Source of the DNA: a virus | Strand: one strand, 5' to 3' | Length of the DNA stretch: 29,752 bases | Virus record (IMG/VR): IMGVR_UViG_3300031963_000678 | Location: 1 to 29,752 of that record | Shown: piece by piece, positions 2,193 through 29,699 of the stretch | Numbering within the stretch: the stretch's first letter is position 1 | Layout: the number at the start of each line of letters is the position of its first letter | Position numbers and translations under genes: made by a program | Notes under the pieces: model-generated | Database searches by the model: none | Seen by the model: only the letters and a program-made list of their open reading frames with translations | What the model was told of the DNA's origin: nothing

Positions 2193-2584
2193 GCGCCGGA
2201 ATAGTCAAGCTCGCCAATCAGTCTCACTGTAACAGTGCTTCGCCCATTGAATACACTCTCAACTTGCGGAGGCTCTGCATATTCCCAAAGAATACTGGTT
2301 GGAGCTTGTACAACGCCTTTAAGCGTTGTGCTCATACCAGAAAACACATCATCTGGAAGAGTGAAGCGTGAATAGTTCCCAAATTGACCATAGTAATGAT
2401 CAAGAATAGCCTTCGTGTTTACGTCGCTAATGTTTTCAAATTGCAAATCAATGGCATGACCAAACGAGCGATTGCCAAACACTCGCTTAACAGTGACTCC
2501 TGAAAGGCCGCGATAAGTTTTAGTGGGAAATTGCCCTGGAGAATAAGACCGCCCTGTTGGGCGAATAGAAGGAAAAACTGCCAT
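2189..2584 (-). CDS. Minor tail protein (lambda M-like)
   Basis: A 131-residue protein starting MAVFPSIRPTGRSYSPGQFP and containing KTYRGLSGVTVKRVFGNRSFG, features I associate with lambda gpM-like distal tail proteins encoded just after the tape measure gene. Its ATG overlaps the stop of the tape measure gene by one base (TAATG), typical of translational coupling. It ends with another 4-nt overlap into the next minor tail gene. Its role is probably in the tip complex that caps the tail tube at its distal end. The fold is predicted beta-rich and no enzymatic residues are seen. Confidence 0.6.
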   Translation of the reverse strand: MAVFPSIRPTGRSYSPGQFPTKTYRGLSGVTVKRVFGNRSFGHAIDLQFENISDVNTKAILDHYYGQFGNYSRFTLPDDVFSGMSTTLKGVVQAPTSILWEYAEPPQVESVFNGRSTVTVRLIGELDYSGA

Positions 2585-5500
2585 TAGCGAATACCAATGC
2601 TAGAGCGAGTGGAAGGGCTTTGCTTAATTTTATCGAGGGTCATTGACATACCTCGTTGAGCACCACCAGCAATGGAAGCACGGCGAGTTTCTGCCATTGC
2701 CTGCTCTAATTGTTCGCGGCTAACGTATTCTACGCCATTGATCTTAGTGGTTTCAAAGTTCATGCTGAGAGAAGGCGTCTGAGGCATGCCTGGAGCGCCA
2801 TTGCCCATCATGTCGCGAGCAGAACGTCCACCAAGCTGCACTGGAATGGAGCGACCATCAGGGAGGGGCACAACGGCTTCGTTGTACTTGCCTTCGCCTA
2901 TAAGGCTAAGCGTGGGGCCTGTGACAATGCCGCCATTAGCAAATGCAGGTGGCGCGAACGGCATGGAGCCTGGCGCTCCACCTCCTCCAAGGCCTCCTGC
3001 ATATTGACGTATTCCGGGAAGGCTGTCCGAAATGCCTCCTCCGCTGCCGGCTGGATTACCTCCTCCACCAAGACCGGCAAACAGTTTTGCAATGCCAATG
3101 GCGATGTAAGTGGCAATCATTTGCGAAGCTGCCTGAGACAAGGCTTGCCCCACGCTTTGCAAGAAGCTTGCAAACACTTCTTTGGCAGTGGCAGTGCCAG
3201 AAATCATGCTTGTAATGCCTTCAGTGAGCATATTGGCAAAGGCTCCACTCACGCCATTGATTGCTCCTTGAATACTCTCAAAAACAGCTCTGAGCTGCAT
3301 TGCAGTGGTTTCAACGTTAGCAAGTTGAGTGGCATAATCTTGGTCTCCATATTGCTCCATTGCTTGCTCAAAGACGCCAGCGGCGCTACCAGTAAAACCG
3401 GCTCGCAATCCTCCACCAATAACTCCTAAACCACGCTGCGCTTCAAACAAACCCTTCTCTTTTTCAAGAAGCTTGCCATTCTCAATACGAAGTCTTATTT
3501 GCTCCCTCAAGTTGTCAATGTCTGATTGAATCAGCTTTTGCTCGTCTGCTTTAAGTTGAGCAATTTTTTCTTCAATCAGGAAATTAGCCTCTTGCTCAGC
3601 AGTAAGCTCGCCATATCCTTGCTTTAAATTACCAAGAAGCATTTGCTGCTTGTCAATTTCCATGTTTTCGTTGCGCAATGCATCGACAAATGGCTTTCTA
3701 AGTTCAAGCTTTGCTCCTTTGATGGCAATGTCTCTTTGCTTTTCAGCTATAGCCAAGCCATTGGCAAGCTTCACTTCTTGATCTTTAATAGCAAGAGCCT
3801 TGTCGGCTGCACTTAAATTATCATTTTTAATTTTTTCCGATTCAAGGCGGAATCGCTCCTGCAATTCTGCTCTTTCAGTTTCCAGAGTAAGCTCAGCGAG
3901 TTTAATATCGTAAGAAGTTTTAGAAAGTAAATTGGCCTGCAATTGCTGGTCTAATACTTGTTTTTCGGCCTCAAATTGTTGCTTAATAAAATCAAGCTGA
4001 CTTCTGTTGTAGGTGTCAAGCTCTTTTCCTTTCTTTTTCTTCCCATCGCCTTCGCCAGGTGGAATCGGCGCAAGCGTTGCCTGCTGTTGCATTTGCTGAT
4101 CTTCAAAAGCAATTTGCCTTTGTCGAAAAGCAGCCTCTGATTGAAGGCGCTGAGCCTGCGGAGCAAGTGCCATCGCCTCACTACGCTTTACATAAAGTGG
4201 CCCGCCTGGAGCCTGTTGAGAACGAATAGCGCCAAGTTGCTGAAGTTGACCAAGTTCTTTTTGGCTCACTGGAACAAGCCTGTCACCACCTGGCTGTTGC
4301 GCACCTGCTCTTCCCGAGATTTGGCCAATAAGTTGATATGCAGATTGTGCTTGCTGTTCTGCTGCCCGTGCCTCGGTTTGTGACATTGAGCGAATTGCCT
4401 GTGCCGCTCCTAATGCTTTCGCCTTAGTATCGGCCAATGCTTGATTCATGCTCATAAATTTTTCAATGAGCATGCTGATGCCAACAATTACAAGACCCAC
4501 CCCAGTGGTGGCAAAGAAGGTGCGAAGCGTAATGCCAGCCGTGCGAATAGAAGCCGCAGTAGTTTGAGCTGTAGCGCCAGTGGCAGCCATCATGCCCCTA
4601 AAAGCGCTCAACGTGCTAGTCCCTGTAGCCACGCGAGCATTGAAAATTAAAAGCTGCAATGCATTGGCGGCCCATAGTCCACGCATTACATTCAGCGCAA
4701 TATTAATTGGCAATGCAATTGCATATAGACGCGCAAGATAGCCAACAATGGGATTGCCGGCAATTTGCAGCAGCACCTTGCTCACTTCCAATGCAATGCC
4801 AGCAAACTGACCAAACTGTTCAATTAATCCTGAGATATTTTGCCCAATACCTTCAAAAGCAGGACGTAAACGCTCAAGCTCTTGTGCAATTGCAAAGCCA
4901 CCACTGGTTTGGGCCGTGGCTCCAGTAAAGAAAGCGTTAAAACCATCAGAAATCTGCTTAATGCCGCTAGTCAACGGCACGACCACGCCATTCAAGAATC
5001 CTACGGCGACGGGCTCAAAGCTCTCATACAAAAGAGCCATTGAGTTTTGCATGCGATTAATGACGCCTTGGAATGTGCGCGCTGCGCCTTCTGCGCCAGG
5101 CCCAAATTCCTGCTTCATTACAATGCCTACATTCTTGAGTAAGGCGACCATTGCCTGCCCTTTATAAGCGCCATCTTCCAATGCCGCAGAAAAGTCCTGA
5201 ATGGCTTTTGGTCCTTCAAAGCCAGCGGCCTCTGCAAACAACGCCATGGCACCAGGTAGCACATCACCCAACTGCCCCTTAAGCTCTTCACTCATCACCT
5301 GGCCCTTGCTTGCCATTTGGGCAAAGGCATAGTTCACTCGATCCACTTTGTCTGCGCTCATGCCGAACGTAGCTGCAGCCTGCGTAATGCCAGTGAACAA
5401 ATCCCTAATTTCATCTCCGCTAAAACCAGCCGGAGCCATGGAAGCATAAAGCTTGGTAAAGCCATCTCGTGCCGATTGCAAGGGCACGTTGTACTTGTCA

Positions 5501-7191
5501 ACTAAATCAAGGATGAGCTGGTTAGAAGCAGCGGCCTCTTCCGCAGTAGGAGAAATTGCGCCAAGAGTATTGCGGAAGTTTTGAAGCTGACTTACAGCCG
5601 CTCCTACTTCTGCTGGGAAATTTTGAATGAACGCAAGCATTTTATATGCCTGACCAAATAGTAAAACCTGCTTGGTGGCAAAGGCAAATTCACTGCCCAG
5701 TTCACGAATGACGCCTGCACCAGGAAGATTCATTCCTCCCATCGCACGCCCGAATCCTCCCATTCCCCCACCGCCGCCGCCTCCGCCACCTCCGGGGGGA
5801 ACTGCACCTCCGCCTCCAAACATGCTGCTTTGAGCAGTAATTTGGCCCAATGGAGAAGAGGGATAGTGCATTCCCGACATAGGGAATTGCCCCATAGAGC
5901 CACGCCCAAGCATGCCACTCATTGGGAATTGGCCCATCGACCCACGCCCCATCATGCCGCTCATTGGGAACTGCCCCATGGAGCCAATAGGCGAAAAAGG
6001 TCCAATGGGAAGGCCCAGTGTTCTATTTGCTTTATTAAGCATGTAAGACGCTGCCCTGCTAAGGGGAGCATTTTCTCCTCCAATACCAGGAGCTTGCAGC
6101 GCAGGAAGGCCTGCAAACATTTGCCTCGTCATACGAGACGCACTTGTCTGTCCAGCAGCAGGCAATAAATTCTGACCTCCTATAGGAGCCCTTCCTCCAA
6201 ACATTTGCTCTGGAGACTGAGTGAGAGCGCGACTGATAAGCTGAGTAATGCCGCTTCCAATTTTGCCTACCCACGGATTAGAAGCATTTACGGTTCGCGT
6301 GTAATCAGAAAAGCTTTCGGCAATGCTTTTCAATAAAGGATCAAAAGCTTTGGGTCCATTAAAGCCAGGAAGTCTAAAGCCCTGAGGAAATTGCTCTTTA
6401 AAAGCTGCTTGGCGGTTTGCTGCACCAACAAGATCAGTGGTAAGTCTGCTCTCAGGCATCATCCGCAACATGCGTTGTGCTGCGCGAGGATTTTCCGTGA
6501 GATTCGCAATCCTGTCCAACATCTCGTTGAGGTTGGGCATCGAGCGAGCGGCGCTCGTTTTGGCTTGCCCCCTAATAGGGCGCAGCCTCATCTGTAGGTC
6601 TTTAAGGCTGTCAAAGACAGCATCCGCAATCCCATTGCTTTCTTCTACAAGCTTTTTGGCTTGCGCAACCAAATCTTTGCGACCTCCACTCGGAGTGCCA
6701 CCAAGATCCCGAATAATTTTCTCAAGACCCGCTGTGTTATATCCTCCTTTGCTTAATGACCCCTTTTGAAGGCGAGCTAAAATTGCCTGTTTAGCAATAT
6801 TCTCTTGCGCTTGCTGCACACCAAAGGCCTTTCCGGTGAGACCTTGCTCGCGCATGAATTTTTCTAAACCCGCAGCGCCTTGAGGGCCGCCAGAAAAAGC
6901 GCCACCAGAACTCGCCCTAATCTTTCCGCTTAATTCATTAAGCTTGCGAGCTAATGTATCAGCTTTCGCGATTTCTGCCGATAAGTTGGTTTCAATATTT
7001 AGACGATAATTACGCCTTCTGATATTAGTGCCAAGCGCATTTAGCTCGTTCTGAACAGAACGACGATCAAACTTTACCTGCACTGGAATGCTATATCCAG
7101 CAGCAGCTTGCCCTAATCCTGCTAATTGTTGCCTAAAAAATCCCAGGTCAAGACTTACCTTAAGCTTCAGTTCGGCGTCTTGAGCTGCCAT
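2584..7191 (-). CDS. Tail tape measure protein
   Basis: The largest gene in the window, 1535 residues. It sets tail length and sits inside the tube before ejection. Evidence: size; position right after the frameshifted chaperone genes; long Gln/Ala/Lys-rich helical stretches (roughly residues 1000-1250); hydrophobic segments near 812-834 and 890-912; and a C-terminal FANGGIVTGPTLSLIGE...EAVVPLPDG block near residue 1418, a common hallmark of tape measure C-termini. Unusual parts are three near-identical GSMGQFPMSGM repeats at about residues 402-441 and a run of about ten Gly at about 460-475, which look like a flexible linker. By the rule of about 0.15 nm per residue the tail would be about 230 nm, unless the protein is processed. 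Start at 7191 has only weak purine-rich sequence upstream. Confidence 0.93.
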   Translation of the reverse strand: MAAQDAELKLKVSLDLGFFRQQLAGLGQAAAGYSIPVQVKFDRRSVQNELNALGTNIRRRNYRLNIETNLSAEIAKADTLARKLNELSGKIRASSGGAFSGGPQGAAGLEKFMREQGLTGKAFGVQQAQENIAKQAILARLQKGSLSKGGYNTAGLEKIIRDLGGTPSGGRKDLVAQAKKLVEESNGIADAVFDSLKDLQMRLRPIRGQAKTSAARSMPNLNEMLDRIANLTENPRAAQRMLRMMPESRLTTDLVGAANRQAAFKEQFPQGFRLPGFNGPKAFDPLLKSIAESFSDYTRTVNASNPWVGKIGSGITQLISRALTQSPEQMFGGRAPIGGQNLLPAAGQTSASRMTRQMFAGLPALQAPGIGGENAPLSRAASYMLNKANRTLGLPIGPFSPIGSMGQFPMSGMMGRGSMGQFPMSGMLGRGSMGQFPMSGMHYPSSPLGQITAQSSMFGGGGAVPPGGGGGGGGGGMGGFGRAMGGMNLPGAGVIRELGSEFAFATKQVLLFGQAYKMLAFIQNFPAEVGAAVSQLQNFRNTLGAISPTAEEAAASNQLILDLVDKYNVPLQSARDGFTKLYASMAPAGFSGDEIRDLFTGITQAAATFGMSADKVDRVNYAFAQMASKGQVMSEELKGQLGDVLPGAMALFAEAAGFEGPKAIQDFSAALEDGAYKGQAMVALLKNVGIVMKQEFGPGAEGAARTFQGVINRMQNSMALLYESFEPVAVGFLNGVVVPLTSGIKQISDGFNAFFTGATAQTSGGFAIAQELERLRPAFEGIGQNISGLIEQFGQFAGIALEVSKVLLQIAGNPIVGYLARLYAIALPINIALNVMRGLWAANALQLLIFNARVATGTSTLSAFRGMMAATGATAQTTAASIRTAGITLRTFFATTGVGLVIVGISMLIEKFMSMNQALADTKAKALGAAQAIRSMSQTEARAAEQQAQSAYQLIGQISGRAGAQQPGGDRLVPVSQKELGQLQQLGAIRSQQAPGGPLYVKRSEAMALAPQAQRLQSEAAFRQRQIAFEDQQMQQQATLAPIPPGEGDGKKKKGKELDTYNRSQLDFIKQQFEAEKQVLDQQLQANLLSKTSYDIKLAELTLETERAELQERFRLESEKIKNDNLSAADKALAIKDQEVKLANGLAIAEKQRDIAIKGAKLELRKPFVDALRNENMEIDKQQMLLGNLKQGYGELTAEQEANFLIEEKIAQLKADEQKLIQSDIDNLREQIRLRIENGKLLEKEKGLFEAQRGLGVIGGGLRAGFTGSAAGVFEQAMEQYGDQDYATQLANVETTAMQLRAVFESIQGAINGVSGAFANMLTEGITSMISGTATAKEVFASFLQSVGQALSQAASQMIATYIAIGIAKLFAGLGGGGNPAGSGGGISDSLPGIRQYAGGLGGGGAPGSMPFAPPAFANGGIVTGPTLSLIGEGKYNEAVVPLPDGRSIPVQLGGRSARDMMGNGAPGMPQTPSLSMNFETTKINGVEYVSREQLEQAMAETRRASIAGGAQRGMSMTLDKIKQSPSTRSSIGIR
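5875..5990. repeat. 42-nt tandem repeat (about 2.8 copies) within the tape measure gene
   Basis: Three copies of a unit coding GSMGQFPMSGM, spaced by GRG or equivalent, lie side by side in the tape measure gene. Copies differ at several third positions, so they are not a very recent slip. A Gly-codon-rich tract coding about ten consecutive Gly follows at about 5765-5812. Confidence 0.85.
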
Positions 7192-7225: not shown

Positions 7226-8199
7226 TCATTGCTCTTGATTACGTCCGCTAAAAGCCTTCATCTCATCAGCAAGCAATGCAATCACCCGCCCGTCCATTCG
7301 CCTTGTTTTCATTAAGCGTTGAAGGACGATCAAGCTTGCGTCAGTCACTCCATCATCTTTCTTGATTTGCTTTGTATCAAACGGCAAGAAATCTTCAGGC
7401 TTTACCTTGCTCTTTTTGCCTATTAGCAGGCCTGCCGCCATTGTGCCAAACTTAGCAATGGCAACACTGCCAACATTGTATTTTGCGATGTCATGCCTAT
7501 CTAAATACTTAAGCGCACGCTTGACATCATCGAGCGTTTGGAGGCCAAAGCTTTTGGCGCTCCACCGCTCATCATTGAAATCCGATGCAGAAAGTCGAAA
7601 ATAAATTTCGTTCCAATCTGTCAGATTCTTAAGCTGTTTTCTGGCTTGCGCTTCAAGCCTTTCTGCTATTGAGGAGAAGTCCTCTTCGTTGCTTTTTTTG
7701 CTGTAATGGCCTCCTGTGTCTCTGCACTTTGCTCTTCAGCAATGAATTCAACTACTTTTGCAATAATTTTACGGGGCAGAGTTTTTGTGTCTTCCATTTC
7801 CCAATCAAAAAGATCTTGCCATTCACCATCAACAAGTCCTTGCCCACGAGAGCGGATAAACGCAGTGACCATGCGAGCATTCGTGGCCTCCACCGAAGAC
7901 CCGCTGGTGATCATGGCCAACGTTTCTTCCGTAAACTCAGAAAGCAAATCAGCCTCTGAGATTACCTCTCCACTTTGAAGCAATGAGAACGCTTCGTCAA
8001 TGGAAATATTGCGAGACGTAGCAATGCGCTTAGCGAGCTGCACGGCGCGAATGGTGGCCTGGCTTTGCAGCTTGCTAATTTCCTCTTGCTCAATAGATTC
8101 AGCAACAAGCCAGCTACCGTATTTCTTTAGACGGATTTCAGGCAGCAGCTCAAAATAACCTTCAGTTTTAGTCTGAACTAGAAAGCTGTACTTGCTCAT
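7226..8199 (-). CDS. Tail assembly chaperone, -1 frameshift fusion (lambda GT-like)
   Basis: Reading from the ATG at 8199 and slipping -1 on the A7 tract at 7693-7699 gives a product of about 324 residues: 169 shared with the short chaperone, then 155 from the -1 frame. The -1 frame is open from the slip site to the stop at 7226 and continues SNEEDFSSIAERLEAQ, then a soluble helical region ending near FLPFDTK...KAFSGRNQEQ. In lambda-type phages the G and GT proteins bind tape measure protein and recruit tail tube subunits; the fusion is the minor product and both genes lie directly upstream of the tape measure gene, exactly as here. An ATG-initiated 71-residue ORF (7226-7441) is just the tail of this extension. 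Frameshifting is inferred from sequence, not shown experimentally. Confidence 0.85.
7643..7699 (-). promoter_or_regulatory. Programmed -1 ribosomal frameshift signal (slippery A7 plus downstream hairpins)
   Basis: On the minus strand the zero-frame codons GCA AAA AAA GCA present the heptamer A AAA AAA (7693-7699). Eight nt downstream is a perfect hairpin, GAGGA-CTTC-TCCTC (7671-7684). A second one, GGCTTG-AAGCG-CAAGCC, lies at 7643-7659. The zero-frame stop TAG is at 7666-7668, between the hairpins. Slippery site, spacer of 8 nt and stem-loop match the architecture of known phage tail chaperone frameshift sites. Confidence 0.85.
7666..8199 (-). CDS. Tail assembly chaperone, short form (lambda G-like)
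   Basis: A 177-residue, acidic, mainly helical protein beginning MSKYSFLVQTKTEGYFELLPEIRLKKYG. Most ribosomes should end here, at TAG 7666-7668, just after the slippery A7, giving the abundant short chaperone; a minority should shift into the longer fusion. It is recognised by place (directly between tail completion genes and the tape measure gene), size and the frameshift signal, not by a sequence motif. Its start lies inside the end of the upstream 85-residue gene (about 32 nt overlap), which implies coupled translation. Confidence 0.8.
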   Translation of the reverse strand: MSKYSFLVQTKTEGYFELLPEIRLKKYGSWLVAESIEQEEISKLQSQATIRAVQLAKRIATSRNISIDEAFSLLQSGEVISEADLLSEFTEETLAMITSGSSVEATNARMVTAFIRSRGQGLVDGEWQDLFDWEMEDTKTLPRKIIAKVVEFIAEEQSAETQEAITAKKATKRTSPQ

Positions 8200-9334: not shown

Positions 9335-9913
9335 TCAGCTATTAGGAGCAGTCGGGATAATGCTGCCAGTCTCAGAAGCATTCTGGTGAATGCCAATGCG
9401 ACCACGGCTGGTCAGATCAAAGGTGACTTCCACGAGGTTATCAGCAGGATAGCTCTCGTTGTAGTTCATCACGCAAGCAACAAATGCCACCCGGTCATAG
9501 TAGTAAGTGTTGCCTGAAGCGCCCAGTTGCTTATTGATTTCCACGTACACTTCGTGGTTCTTGTCGTAACGACTAGCGCTAACTGCTTGGAAAGCTTCGT
9601 CAAAGCTGTTGGGCAGGAATACAGTGCCATCAACGTCCTTCTGGAAGTAGGAAGTGATGGAAGCAGTGGCTTGGCTGGTAGTGATCACGCTATCAGCGAA
9701 ACCGCCACCGCCCAGCAGGTAGAATTCTTGGTTGCCATCGTTAAAGGCAACAGAAGCAGTGGTGGCTGCTTGCAGAGTGTAGAGAGTGGGAGCGCCGCTA
9801 ACGGTGAAAGTAGCGCCAGACTGAGTGATGATGGGACGGGAAGTGCCACCAATAGAGCCCACGCGGACAATCACGTCCTGGCTCTTCACTAGCTCAGTGG
9901 GATGGTAGAGCAT
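9335..9913 (-). CDS. Major tail tube protein
   Basis: A 192-residue beta-rich protein with many Thr/Ser/Gly/Asn (e.g. SGATFTVSGAPTLYTLQAATTASVAF). It contains VEVTFDLTSRGRIGI near the end, as in tube proteins that need a closing strand. Position between connectors and tail completion genes, a good ribosome-binding site (GAGGA, 8 nt before ATG) and its own downstream terminator all point to an abundant structural protein. The upstream leader TTTCCCATTGAGGA also appears before the internal scaffold start at 13191. Confidence 0.75.
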   Translation of the reverse strand: MLYHPTELVKSQDVIVRVGSIGGTSRPIITQSGATFTVSGAPTLYTLQAATTASVAFNDGNQEFYLLGGGGFADSVITTSQATASITSYFQKDVDGTVFLPNSFDEAFQAVSASRYDKNHEVYVEINKQLGASGNTYYYDRVAFVACVMNYNESYPADNLVEVTFDLTSRGRIGIHQNASETGSIIPTAPNS

Positions 9914-15057: not shown

Positions 15058-15774
15058 TCAATGGATGAATCCTATCGGAGCAGTGGCAATGTTCATGCCA
15101 GGGAAAAGCTTGTCACGATACAAAACCATGCCAGTAATGAGACGCTCAGCAATGAAAGCCAGCGCTCGCTTGTCATAGCCTCCAATGCGAAGAAATTGCT
15201 CTTCATGCTTATGCCAAATAGGGGCTAGCGCGACAAATAATGCGCTCATAAATTGCTTGTACTGAACATTGCCTCCTCTGGCCATATTGCAGCCAATAAA
15301 GCTATTTTGCTTCCAAATGGCATCAATTTCTTCGCGAGAAAAAATCCAGCTTCCAGAATCGGCAAGCTCTCTAGTGATGGCAGGAGCATCAAAAGCAGAA
15401 TGTCCGCCGTAAAACTGCTGCTCTAACGTGCAGCTAAATAATGCAGGCTCTGGAAAGTACAACGTATTTTCTTCGTACCATTGGTCTTCTGGTTCCAGCC
15501 AGTTGCGCCTGTACTGCGCATTGCCAATGTTATTTTCATTCGCGTTGAGAATCATCCAGGAAATACAAGATAATTCTCCCCATCGACTATTCAGCCGCGA
15601 AAGGGAAGCATTCTCATCGTCAAATACATAGCCTGCTGAACGGAGCGTTTCGCGCTCCTCGCTAGACAAAGCATGCGCTCCTCCCATGATGGGAACAATG
15701 CGAGAACGCGCTTCATAGCGCACTTTCTCGCCAGGAATGCATACGGCGTAAATTGTGCAATCAGACGGCTGCAT
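15058..15774 (-). CDS. DUF4422-type glycosyltransferase-like protein
   Basis: A 238-residue protein starting MQPSDCTIYAVCIPGEKVRYEARSRIVPI. The segment NANENNIGNAQYRRNWLEPED matches the IGxxHYRRxF motif of DUF4422 glycosyltransferases (galactofuranosyl-transferase-like). W/Y-rich blocks and a C-terminal ERLITGMVLY complete the fold. A Shine-Dalgarno-like GAGGAAGG lies just before the ATG, which overlaps the end of the upstream gene by about 14 nt. It is the last gene of the minus-strand part of the glycan island. Donor and acceptor sugars cannot be read from sequence. Confidence 0.7.
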   Translation of the reverse strand: MQPSDCTIYAVCIPGEKVRYEARSRIVPIMGGAHALSSEERETLRSAGYVFDDENASLSRLNSRWGELSCISWMILNANENNIGNAQYRRNWLEPEDQWYEENTLYFPEPALFSCTLEQQFYGGHSAFDAPAITRELADSGSWIFSREEIDAIWKQNSFIGCNMARGGNVQYKQFMSALFVALAPIWHKHEEQFLRIGGYDKRALAFIAERLITGMVLYRDKLFPGMNIATAPIGFIH

Positions 15775-16477
15775 AAACCTTCCTCGCTGCCCATAGTTCG
15801 TTGTAATTATTCACGCCTTTGGCGCCAAGACCAGTTAAATCGCCGCCTCCTGCGGGTTTGCTCCAGGCCATGATCGTACCATCAGGCAAGACAAAGCCCC
15901 TATTCTTCTGTCCATACGTGGGAGTGAGTTCCAGGTAGTCACCGTAAATAAAATTGGCTTGGCTTCCATTGGAAGCAAGCGCCTTGCCCAATAGCGTTGG
16001 GCCAGTGGGACACAGTGGCGTGATGCCATAGTATTGCTCTGTGCAATTTGCCACAATCATTTCAATGGCAGTTTGCAAAGCCTTGTTGTCGGGCTTGGAA
16101 TAGAGCACAGTCGTGGCGCACGCCCAACTGGTGTAGCTAAAACGCTGGATATCTCGGAATGCCAAGAATTCAATGCGATCTCCAAGATCCACTGCATTAA
16201 AGGCCCTCACGCCAATATCAAAATACCAACCACCGAGTTTGTTTAACAAGCAGAATCGGCCAAGGTCTGCTTTGTAAGAGAATGGAACCAGGCAATCATA
16301 CGCCCACACCACTTCGTCTCCATAGTTTTCAGCAATGAAAGCACGCAATGAAGCATCGCTGTAAATGACGTGCTCCGCATCAGGAAAACATGCGTCAATG
16401 GTGCTAGTGGCGTGCTTAAGGAACGGACTAAGCTGCTCCGTTGGATCAGTGGAAAGAAAGATTTGTGAAATCTGCAT
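15761..16477 (-). CDS. GT32-like glycosyltransferase with altered DXD motif
   Basis: A 238-residue protein from ATG 16477 (a TTG nine bases upstream is in frame). The segment YKADLGRFCLLNKLGGWYFD is the sugar-binding region of DXD-containing (GT32/Gly_transf_sug) enzymes, where KADxxRxxxLxxxGGxYxD leads into the metal-binding DXD. Here that reads YFDIGV, so the second Asp is Gly. A Gly-rich C-terminal part (PAGGGDLTGLGAKGVNN) follows. It directly follows the GT4 gene (stop at 16483-16485). Activity may be retained through other residues or be lost; this is the main uncertainty. Confidence 0.75.
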   Translation of the reverse strand: MQISQIFLSTDPTEQLSPFLKHATSTIDACFPDAEHVIYSDASLRAFIAENYGDEVVWAYDCLVPFSYKADLGRFCLLNKLGGWYFDIGVRAFNAVDLGDRIEFLAFRDIQRFSYTSWACATTVLYSKPDNKALQTAIEMIVANCTEQYYGITPLCPTGPTLLGKALASNGSQANFIYGDYLELTPTYGQKNRGFVLPDGTIMAWSKPAGGGDLTGLGAKGVNNYNELWAARKVYAAV

Positions 16478-16482
16478 GGCAA

Positions 16483-17706
16483 TCAAGCAATCTTTGCGGG
16501 AGTTCCAAAGCCTTTAAATTCAGGCTCGACAGGCTTTGCAGCAAGCGTTTCGCTCACTGCATCCTTAAGCTGTTGCTGAATATAAGGCCAGGTAAAAGGC
16601 TCCTCATGAAGACGGTTGTAACACCATTGCCCATGTTCCTTGAGAATGTCACGATTCTCGTAATAGTAAGTGAGGATGTTCGCTGCGCATTCAGGGTCGG
16701 GCAGCATGCGCTCTAAACCATAGTTCCTATCTGTTTCACTGGCATTGCATTCAATGCGAGGCAGCTCATCAAAGATTTCAGCCAAGCTTGTATGATCAGG
16801 AACCACTTGCGCCACGCCAGTGGCACCATGCTCTGAGTTGACCAGGCCCCATCCTTCGCCAATGCAAGTGTTAATGCCAATATCAGCAGCGTTATACACT
16901 TGATTAAGTTGTTCAATGGGAAGACAATTGTCCACTGAATAGTGTGGACTGGTCAAAATAAGTTTACTGGTCGGGTCAAAGCCTTCGTCACGCGCCACTC
17001 GTTTAAACAGCGGAACAAGTTCCCATCCCAAATCCTTGCTGCCCATATTGAGCCATAGACGAGCATCGTCTTTGTCTTTGGCAAACTTAATAAATGCCTT
17101 GATGGTCAAATCAATGCGCTTGCGTGGTTGATTCCTGTTGCCATTGAATACGACAAACACATCTTCTGGTACACCAAGCTTTTTGCGGCATTCTTGCTTG
17201 TCGAGAGGAAAGAACTTCGTGAAATCGGTGCCATGGCCAATGATGCGCACGGGCTTTGTATAGCCCATAAGCTCAAGTTCTTTCTTGGCGAATTCCGTGT
17301 AAGTGGCGAGACCGTCCCATTCCATCATTGGCTTGGCCAGATCTGGGAACAAACCGTAAGAGTCGATGGGCGTGTAGACGAACCATTTGAAGCCAAGCTG
17401 CTCCTTAAGAGGCTTTGCTTTTTCCCACAAGCTAAGAGCAATCCAAATGTCATTGGTCACCCACACCAGATCGGGCTTCACCGTTTGGATGATGCTTGCA
17501 ATACGGTGAGAACCAAAAGGATCATTGCCGTGAAGCATCGCTGGATAGACATTGTAATTTTTCGCCTCTGGATGAGGGTCGCCATGGTAATTCACGGCAA
17601 GCACGCTCACTTCATGCTCTTCTGCCAGCGCAGGAAGCAAATATTGTGCAACGCGACCAAATCCTGTTTCTACAAACGCATCGCCACAGTAAAGAATGCG
17701 AGCCAT
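16483..17706 (-). CDS. GT4-family glycosyltransferase (GT-B fold)
   Basis: A protein of about 407 residues. N-terminal MARILYCGDAFVETGFGRVAQYLLPAL and NYHGDP give the N-Rossmann half. C-terminal FVVFNGNRNQPRKRIDLTIKAFIKFA, AADIGINTCIGEGWGLVNSEHG (E-x7-E motif, donor-sugar binding) and CxLTYYYENRD give the nucleotide-sugar half. Typical GT4 retaining transferase, likely cytoplasmic. The ATG at 17706 has AAGGA six nt upstream; another ATG at 17712 is in frame. It is the first gene of the minus-strand part of the glycan island and is divergent from the next gene. Substrate unknown. Confidence 0.88.
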   Translation of the reverse strand: MARILYCGDAFVETGFGRVAQYLLPALAEEHEVSVLAVNYHGDPHPEAKNYNVYPAMLHGNDPFGSHRIASIIQTVKPDLVWVTNDIWIALSLWEKAKPLKEQLGFKWFVYTPIDSYGLFPDLAKPMMEWDGLATYTEFAKKELELMGYTKPVRIIGHGTDFTKFFPLDKQECRKKLGVPEDVFVVFNGNRNQPRKRIDLTIKAFIKFAKDKDDARLWLNMGSKDLGWELVPLFKRVARDEGFDPTSKLILTSPHYSVDNCLPIEQLNQVYNAADIGINTCIGEGWGLVNSEHGATGVAQVVPDHTSLAEIFDELPRIECNASETDRNYGLERMLPDPECAANILTYYYENRDILKEHGQWCYNRLHEEPFTWPYIQQQLKDAVSETLAAKPVEPEFKGFGTPAKIA

Positions 17707-17739
17707 AGCCATCCTTGAATCTTCGTCATCTTAAGGGGC

Positions 17740-27438: not shown

Positions 27439-28173
27439 TCAAGCCCTGCCGTAGGAAGGCAAGTTGGTATTCGCTGCCTCAAAGAACGCTGGCATCCGGC
27501 TCCGTTGCGTTTCTGCCAGACCATCTGCTTTGCCCTTCTCAAACAAGCTGTCACTCTGCTTGAGCCAGAAATCTTTGTTCAACCATTTGTTCTCGCTGGC
27601 ACCCAGCGCATCAAATGCCCACAATGCAGTGGCGCGACGCAGCTTATTCAAGCTCTGACCAGCATCCTCCCCTAGTTCCTTAGCCACAAGACTATGCACG
27701 CCAACGTGGGTAATCTCGTCACGGCTAATATCAGCAGCCACAGTGCGAATGCCCATATCGCCATTAAAGCGGAAGAACGGCAGCACAACAAAGAAGATGC
27801 TGCGCTCCAAAATGGCAGCTTTCAAAATGGGGTGGGCAGGATGCTCCTGCCATGCATTCAGAATGCCTTCCACTTCCTTCTCGGCCTTTTCATCGGCACC
27901 ATGGGCAGCAACAATGTAGTTGAGGGCCTGATCATGACGCTGTTCATCTTCCTGGTTATGACGAAGGGCTTCCACAACGCCAGGCGTGGAAGGCAGATCA
28001 CGCTCTAGCCCCTGCTCCAGAAAGTCCTTCACAGGCAGTTCCAAATGACGCAGTGCCAGCAGCTTACCAAGAGTGGCCTCGCTGCCTTCCTGCACAACGC
28101 CCTTGTCCACGGCAACGGCCTGCCAAGGCCGTTTTTTAGCAATCATCGACAAATAAGGACTCTTCGTGACCAT
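27439..28173 (-). CDS. nrdB: Ribonucleotide reductase class I beta subunit, short form
   Basis: A protein of about 244 residues (from ATG 28173), shorter than the usual 320-375. Metal ligands fit: Glu45 region (ALRHLELPVKD), Glu77 and His80 (NQEDEQRHDQAL), Glu123 (AILERSIFFV), Glu153 and His156 (SRDEITHVGVHS). In E. coli NrdB the radical Tyr122 lies four residues after His118; here that place is Leu84, so a tyrosyl radical at that position is not possible and a metal-based or other oxidant is expected. It makes deoxynucleotides with NrdA just upstream. ATG context is GACCATGGTC with no Shine-Dalgarno; an in-frame TTG lies at 28191. Confidence 0.88.
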   Translation of the reverse strand: MVTKSPYLSMIAKKRPWQAVAVDKGVVQEGSEATLGKLLALRHLELPVKDFLEQGLERDLPSTPGVVEALRHNQEDEQRHDQALNYIVAAHGADEKAEKEVEGILNAWQEHPAHPILKAAILERSIFFVVLPFFRFNGDMGIRTVAADISRDEITHVGVHSLVAKELGEDAGQSLNKLRRATALWAFDALGASENKWLNKDFWLKQSDSLFEKGKADGLAETQRSRMPAFFEAANTNLPSYGRA

Positions 28174-28203
28174 GGTCGTAGTATCGTTCAATGGTGAGGA
28201 GAA

Positions 28204-28232: not shown

Positions 28233-29699
28233 CTATTCAGCGCAGGCAGCGCAGAATCCAGCCTCTACGGAACAAGACGCAGAATCCTGCTCGGTCTCTT
28301 CATTGAGACCAAACATGCTCTTAAAGTCATCGTCCAACGCAGCATATGCATCATCCTTGCGCTGAGTGTCAGGCAGGACTTGCAAGCTGTAATAGAGGCT
28401 CGTCTGAGGAGAGTCTAGCCAATCCTTCAGGAACACTTCGTCATAATTCACAATGTCTGACCAAGAATTAAACGAATAGCCATGGAACAAGCCTGTGCGT
28501 TGGTACAACTGAACTAGTCCATTGGCAGTCTTGAAGAAAGCTTCCCAGCCCACTTCCGCAGCCGTTTCCACTTCGCCATAGTCAAAGCTCTCCACGCCAA
28601 AAGTGCCAGAGTCACGATCAACAGTGCGAGCAATGGGAGGAGCAATTTCAGGCGTGGTAGTGAAGCCCCGCGTGTCTAAATAGCGATAGGAGCACGATGC
28701 AGTGGGAGCAATGCAAAAAGCACGTTCCATGCCATGCTCACGAGCAACTTCCGCAGCTTTCTGAATGCCCTGATCAATTTGCCAGACGGCCTCTCCAGAA
28801 ATGGTGTTCTTCCAAAAATCATTCCAACCACGAGCATCTTCCGCAAGGAATGCTTCCAATGCATTACCAAAATCTTCATAGCTAATGCTATGAATGGCAA
28901 GGAAATTAGCTAGGCCCAACACGCCCAGACCAATTTGCTTGTCAATAACAGGCGGCAGATATTCGCCCGTGTCGCCAACGCCAGTGCCAGGATGCAGCTC
29001 ACAAAGCTGCATCATGCCCTCGACAAATGCTCCCTGAATATTCTCCAGTGTGCATGCGCCCAAATTAACGTGCTGAAGAAGACAAGTACCACGATGCGGA
29101 AGATATACCTCCAAACAGACATTGGCCCTGATGCGTTCTCCACGATTGTTATATCGGATTTTGTTGAGCCAGAGATCGCCAGAAGAGATGGAACGAAGAC
29201 AGGCATTAATCAGCTCAGGAGACGATGCAGAAAGAAAATTGTCATCAACGTTTAAACAACGCTTCACCCAAGGAAGCTCACTACGTGATGCACTAACAAA
29301 TTCAATGGCATCAGGGCTTGTATAGTCAAGATGAAGAACTACAGCCCCATTTTTATATAAACCGCCCCTACGCAAGATTTCATTAAGCGTGGAATAAATC
29401 TTGCCAAAACTTACTGGCCCGCTTGCCACGAGGCCTTTGCCATTTTCAGCGCCCCTTTCGCGCAGAGAAGATAAATGAACAGCGACCCCCGCACCATTGC
29501 GCAAACCATGGCTAACAAACCGCCAAGACGCTTCAATGCCATCTTCGCCCTCCATTGAATCTTCTACGTTGAACACCGTGCAACTCACAGGCAGGCGTCC
29601 ATCAGGACTATCCAGCCAATCTTGAACGCGCCCCGTGCGGGCAATTGGCTCACATTTTGCCTTTTCCTTCAGCTTCATAAGACGACAAAAGGGGACCAT
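28233..29699 (-). CDS. nrdA: Ribonucleotide reductase class I alpha subunit, short form
   Basis: A 488-residue protein from ATG 29699 (481 from ATG 29678), far below the usual 750 or so; the ATP-cone and early barrel parts are absent. Key residues, numbered from 29678: Cys33 (LPVSCTVF, redox Cys), Asn186-Val-Cys188-Leu-Glu190 (thiyl Cys and active-site pair), Cys199 (TCLLQHVNLGA, second redox Cys), APTASCSY (loop that contacts phosphate), Tyr429-Tyr430 (LYYS, radical path), and C-terminal FCAACAE (tail CxxC). All catalytic positions are therefore present. It works with NrdB directly downstream. Small alpha plus short beta matches a short class I type I recall from cyanophages. Confidence 0.9.
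   Translation of the reverse strand: MVPFCRLMKLKEKAKCEPIARTGRVQDWLDSPDGRLPVSCTVFNVEDSMEGEDGIEASWRFVSHGLRNGAGVAVHLSSLRERGAENGKGLVASGPVSFGKIYSTLNEILRRGGLYKNGAVVLHLDYTSPDAIEFVSASRSELPWVKRCLNVDDNFLSASSPELINACLRSISSGDLWLNKIRYNNRGERIRANVCLEVYLPHRGTCLLQHVNLGACTLENIQGAFVEGMMQLCELHPGTGVGDTGEYLPPVIDKQIGLGVLGLANFLAIHSISYEDFGNALEAFLAEDARGWNDFWKNTISGEAVWQIDQGIQKAAEVAREHGMERAFCIAPTASCSYRYLDTRGFTTTPEIAPPIARTVDRDSGTFGVESFDYGEVETAAEVGWEAFFKTANGLVQLYQRTGLFHGYSFNSWSDIVNYDEVFLKDWLDSPQTSLYYSLQVLPDTQRKDDAYAALDDDFKSMFGLNEETEQDSASCSVEAGFCAACAE

Follow-up and report, generated by a model that had tools for sequence, protein, structure and literature searches.

A strikingly conserved signal for probable -1 ribosomal frameshifting in candidate tail chaperone genes of a cyanophage group

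The DNA analysed in this study (the window) is the whole of a 29.7-kb tailed-phage fragment. Two overlapping frames on its minus strand, G and T, are very probably joined by programmed -1 ribosomal frameshifting of the lambda G/GT type at an A_AAA_AAA heptamer (A7), as judged from the sequence and its relatives. A programmed -1 frameshift joining two tail chaperone frames had been proposed in an initial annotation of the same DNA, and the proposal is supported by the arrangement of the frames, by the conservation of the slip site and by the lack of a conserved start for T. Frameshifting of this type in tail chaperones is well known in tailed phages; what is new here, at the level of comparative sequence analysis, is a candidate signal in this cyanophage group, strikingly conserved and hitherto unannotated. 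No report of a frameshift in the group was found in open papers. The coordinates of the features are listed in Table 1.

Table 1. Positions of the G/T frames, the putative frameshift signal and flanking tail genes in the window
Feature	Position	Strand	Evidence
Probable major tail protein	9335..9913	-	phrog_1407, 6e-5
G-like ORF (zero frame, 177 aa), candidate chaperone of tail assembly	7666..8199	-	position and relatives
Internal Shine-Dalgarno-like AGGAGG, 10 nt before A7	7710..7715	-	sequence and conservation
Slippery heptamer A_AAA_AAA	7693..7699	-	in phase GC[A AAA AAA] G of the G ORF
T, extension in the -1 frame (155 codons plus stop; first codon AGC, 7693-7691)	7226..7693	-	
Hairpin 1, GAGGA-CUUC-UCCUC, 8 nt downstream of slip site	7671..7684	-	folding and relatives
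Zero-frame TAG stop of G	7666..7668	-	
Hairpin 2, 6-bp stem, both-side changes among relatives	7643..7659	-	folding and relatives
Tape measure protein	2584..7191	-	phrog_2335, 9e-61; PF20155

The 3' end of G reads ...ACA GCA AAA AAA GCA ACG AAG AGG ACT TCT CCT CAA TAG, and after the shift the -1 frame reads AAA AAA AGC AAC GAA GAG GAC... (KK-SNEED...). The -1 ORF (translation SNEEDFSSIAERL...) runs for 155 codons to the stop at 7226; on its upstream side the open frame reaches back to a TGA that precedes the zero-frame stop by about 67 nt. An in-frame A7 slip site and this open frame had been described in the initial annotation, and both were found where it had placed them, the A7 in the correct phase. 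Within the overlap of G and the -1 frame the A7 is the sole slippery heptamer. The whole window holds two A7 runs, both strands included, and the chance of one lying in the overlap in the right phase is about 1e-3 by our own estimate. The first ATG, GTG or TTG in the T frame of the window is the ATG at 7441 (codon 85), inside a conserved domain; none occurs in that frame before codon 85.

The structural genes of the window lie on the minus strand in the order head maturation protease, major head protein, probable major tail protein, three small ORFs, G, T and tape measure protein; G and T overlap. A glycosyltransferase gene (phrog_2170) and an adjoining ORF, maybe a second one, are found beside the structural genes (15761-17712, minus strand). 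Genes for the large and small subunits of ribonucleotide reductase are located at 28233-29699 and 27439-28191, respectively (minus strand); the large-subunit match has a break between residues 138 and 183, perhaps an insertion. The second A7 run (28231-28225, minus strand) comes after the stop of the ribonucleotide reductase gene, in surroundings that consist of a G+C-rich inverted repeat and a T run (28233-28190, minus strand), a terminator-like context, and was rejected as a frameshift site.

Searches of Pfam, PHROGs and NCBIfam gave nothing above the cut-off for G or T, nor did a search of the PDB, and G matched no known family. The T proteins of relatives gave sub-threshold matches to Phage_tail_T (PF06223) in 15 of 31 members (best 9.6e-4) and to phrog_337 in 17 of the 31 (best 6e-4), the latter a tail family that is also matched by lambda T itself at 4.7e-7; the window's own T matched neither. 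A scan with lambda T returned just 99%-identical copies, and hence no lambda T profile. Using hhalign, the T profile gave a negative result against the single lambda T, as did the G profile against the single lambda G, a single-sequence comparison having little power. AlphaFold predictions from 8-row alignments had a mean pLDDT of 46 (G) and 45 (T). Sequence similarity is low among tail chaperone ORFs of this type (PMC5009743). Because of the gene order and the weak similarity of the relatives' T to the lambda T family, the G/T pair is read as putatively serving tail-chaperone expression.

Separate searches were made with G and with T, covering viral contigs (IMG/VR), phage genomes and prokaryote genomes; the best 80 matches per search were used, beyond which remote exceptions could exist. 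T lies in the -1 frame in all 146 of the 146 non-identical loci with both parts among the matches listed. After merging of duplicates 144 loci remained, from IMG/VR and Synechococcus phage S-CBS4; four further T matches without G are situated at contig ends. The single match from a prokaryote genome (L240, NYTN01000090.1) is a Rhodobiaceae MAG contig that is also an IMG/VR viral contig, and is probably a mis-binned phage. The closest cultured relative is S-CBS4, which makes a cyanobacterial host likely. Its gp032 and gp033 are direct homologues (57% and 53% amino acid identity, respectively), with an A7 and a -1 frame as in the window but with a different sequence downstream of the slip site; the junction expected in its fusion is AKK-IEEE. 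In the S-CBS4 record they appear as two hypothetical proteins, with no frameshift or G-T fusion annotated. At this locus (L160; NC_016766.1 19779-20749) the annotated gp032 begins 69 nt after the conserved MSKYSF start, and the annotated gp033 begins at a start codon within T.

Among the 144 distinct loci of the matches listed, the slip site is AAAAAAA in 133, AAAAAAG in 10 and AAAAAAC in one; for 31 representatives with <85% amino acid identity the corresponding numbers are 29, 1 and 1. A few relatives have A8. On a 136-sequence tree codon 168 of G (AAA, the first Lys) never changes and codon 169 (the second Lys) changes six times; the median for 74 conserved degenerate G codons is 26 changes. 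The codon before the Lys pair is GCA in 118 of the 136 sequences, four Ala codons being possible. Since codon 168 is unchanged and AAA accounts for just 44% of the Lys codons elsewhere in G and T, the nucleotides are conserved, not merely the Lys-Lys pair; the mean probability of obtaining the motif from synonymous choice alone is 0.17 per representative. The initial annotation had named two sequence-based observations that would speak against the shift: loss of the A7 in close relatives together with a stop in their -1 frame, or a conserved start codon for an independent second gene. The slip site is kept, and the T frame is open, in all relatives found, and no conserved start codon for T was found among the matches listed.

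In the family alignment, nucleotides 33-90 of T have an entropy of 0.29, 0.28 and 0.86 at the three codon positions, and the third-position variability of the T frame sets in directly after the G stop, upstream of the first ATG of the window. The stretch of T right after the shift is protein-coding, and both frames are under protein-level constraint across relatives. The second ORF is without a usable start of its own in the window. The exception in the family is one subclade (L044 and its kin) with a T-frame ATG at codon 12, just past the G stop; this ATG is absent in the window and in S-CBS4. In that subclade alone, T might also start independently or by reinitiation.

The AGGAGG upstream of the A7 had been overlooked in the initial annotation. 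Matches to the Shine-Dalgarno core were sought in the 26 nt preceding the slip site and, as a control, in windows elsewhere in G. Among the matches listed, a match of at least 5 nt is present in 120 of the 144 loci (8.6% of control windows), and one of at least 6 nt in 109 of the 144 (1.6% of control windows). The usual spacing to the slip site is 10 or 14 nt; S-CBS4 has GGAGGTG 14 nt upstream of its A7. An internal Shine-Dalgarno sequence stimulates -1 frameshifting at a distance of 9-14 nt (PMC5009743), a range that includes the 10 nt of the window.

Both hairpins described in the initial annotation hold at their positions, but the weight given to them was overstated, the stems being clade-specific and the slip site near-universal: in the alignment of relatives that it had suggested as a check, the slip site is kept throughout as A7, A6G or A6C, whereas the stems are conserved within the clade and not family-wide. 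The single-sequence folding energy is not exceptional (z = -1.2), and the hairpins therefore gain weight from the comparison with relatives only. Within the window's clade, 98% of the cells for hairpin 1 are paired, with hardly any variation. Since it varies so little and also lies where two frames are read, its conservation does not count as independent proof. The relative L158 has a 5' arm of hairpin 1 that is shifted by 3 nt, with the stem kept and a larger loop. Hairpin 2 is paired in 87% of cells, and three of its pairs are changed on both sides. Over the whole structure 25 both-side-changed cells were counted, against 8.5 in shuffles, a difference whose significance is inflated by relatedness. 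Another stem is found in the S-CBS4 clade, where the best-paired members have GGCGAGGC...GCCTCGCC and the covariation is weak and suggestive, and in several lineages a clear stem downstream of the slip site is absent. A search of Rfam gave no match. The hairpins look like lineage-specific stimulators added to a slip site and Shine-Dalgarno-like element that are themselves fixed.

The same fusion would arise by transcriptional slippage if RNA polymerase added or dropped A's on the A7 and the shifted mRNAs were translated normally. The site is a homopolymer, A runs are so used in some bacteria (PMC3711429; PMC5009743), and A8 is found in a few relatives, as noted. Seven A's are short, however, An with n>7 being given for this process (PMC3711429), and 11 loci have just A6 followed by G or C with the phase of the heptamer kept. 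Slippage of the polymerase needs neither this phase nor a Shine-Dalgarno-like element at a translational spacing, and both are conserved; we regard it as quite improbable.

T could also be a protein in its own right, with translation beginning at an internal start codon or reinitiating once ribosomes have passed the G stop, and the overlap would then be incidental. The codon-12 ATG of one subclade is suitably placed for this, and the AGGAGG could in principle serve initiation. Against it, that ATG is missing in both the window and S-CBS4, and the first T-frame start of the window falls within a conserved domain, while the region before it is conserved and coding in the T frame. Moreover, no T-frame ATG, GTG or TTG lies at initiation distance from the AGGAGG, and the invariant slip site would be left unexplained, which makes a separate T highly improbable. 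A further alternative is a sequencing error, or a gene in decay that a frameshift has broken in two. Homopolymers are indeed error-prone, but the same arrangement recurs in about 144 distinct sequences as well as in the genome of a cultured phage, and both frames are under protein-level constraint, which reduces this explanation to a negligible one.

Under programmed -1 frameshifting, most ribosomes would translate G and terminate at its TAG. In a minority, with the anti-Shine-Dalgarno paired to the AGGAGG and movement slowed by the downstream hairpin or hairpins, the tandem tRNA-Lys would slip from A_AAA_AAA to AAA_AAA, and these ribosomes would read on for 155 codons, yielding a fusion of G and T some 324 aa long. 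If the lambda model applies, the tape measure protein would be coated by G, and the less abundant fusion would use its T domain to recruit the major tail protein; lambda virions retain neither G nor GT. We infer in this way the slippage and its frequency, the stimulation by the Shine-Dalgarno-like element and hairpins, and the chaperone function. In E. coli, A_AAA_AAA is less slippery than A_AAA_AAG (PMC5009743); a 7-A cassette (A_AAA_AAA) from an unrelated gene gave 10% frameshifting in a test, and 6-7% was measured for two HK97-like chaperone genes (PMC3711429).

The arrangement resembles the lambda G/GT tail assembly chaperone frameshift (Xu, Hendrix and Duda, 2004, cited in PMC3711429; reviewed in PMC5009743) in the location of the site between the genes for the major tail and tape measure proteins, in the -1 shift near the end of G and in a T extension lacking a usable start. 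The weak, sub-threshold Phage_tail_T and phrog_337 matches of the relatives' T would also fit a relation to lambda T. The arrangement differs from lambda in that the cyanophage signal has a conserved Shine-Dalgarno-like element and clade-specific hairpins; the window's G also has no detectable similarity to lambda G, in the low-powered single-sequence comparison described above. The slip sites differ as well, being A_AAA_AAA in the window and G_GGA_AAG in lambda. As in E. coli dnaX, a Shine-Dalgarno-like element at -1 spacing, an A-run heptamer and a stem-loop are found in that order, but the dnaX heptamer is A_AAA_AAG, a form present in 10 of the 144 relatives among the matches listed. Because the heptamer usually ends in A, the layout, though dnaX-like, is not classed as a dnaX-type site. 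The gene is also a different one, and the cyanophage shift lengthens the product whereas that of dnaX shortens it.

A broader proposal, conceivable but on the doubtful side, is that this large cyanobacterial siphovirus family may set its tail-chaperone ratio by a three-part signal, in which the slip site and Shine-Dalgarno-like element would be nearly fixed and the hairpin repeatedly replaced as an efficiency dial, and that the preference for A_AAA_AAA over A_AAA_AAG may reflect the lysine tRNA set of the hosts. The predicted frameshift would supply the fusion product that is missing for a widespread group of uncultured cyanophages and also for the cultured S-CBS4, in which T is annotated in truncated form. 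The 144 natural variants would provide a comparative set for the respective shares of slip site, internal Shine-Dalgarno sequence and hairpin in -1 frameshifting in a cyanobacterial host.
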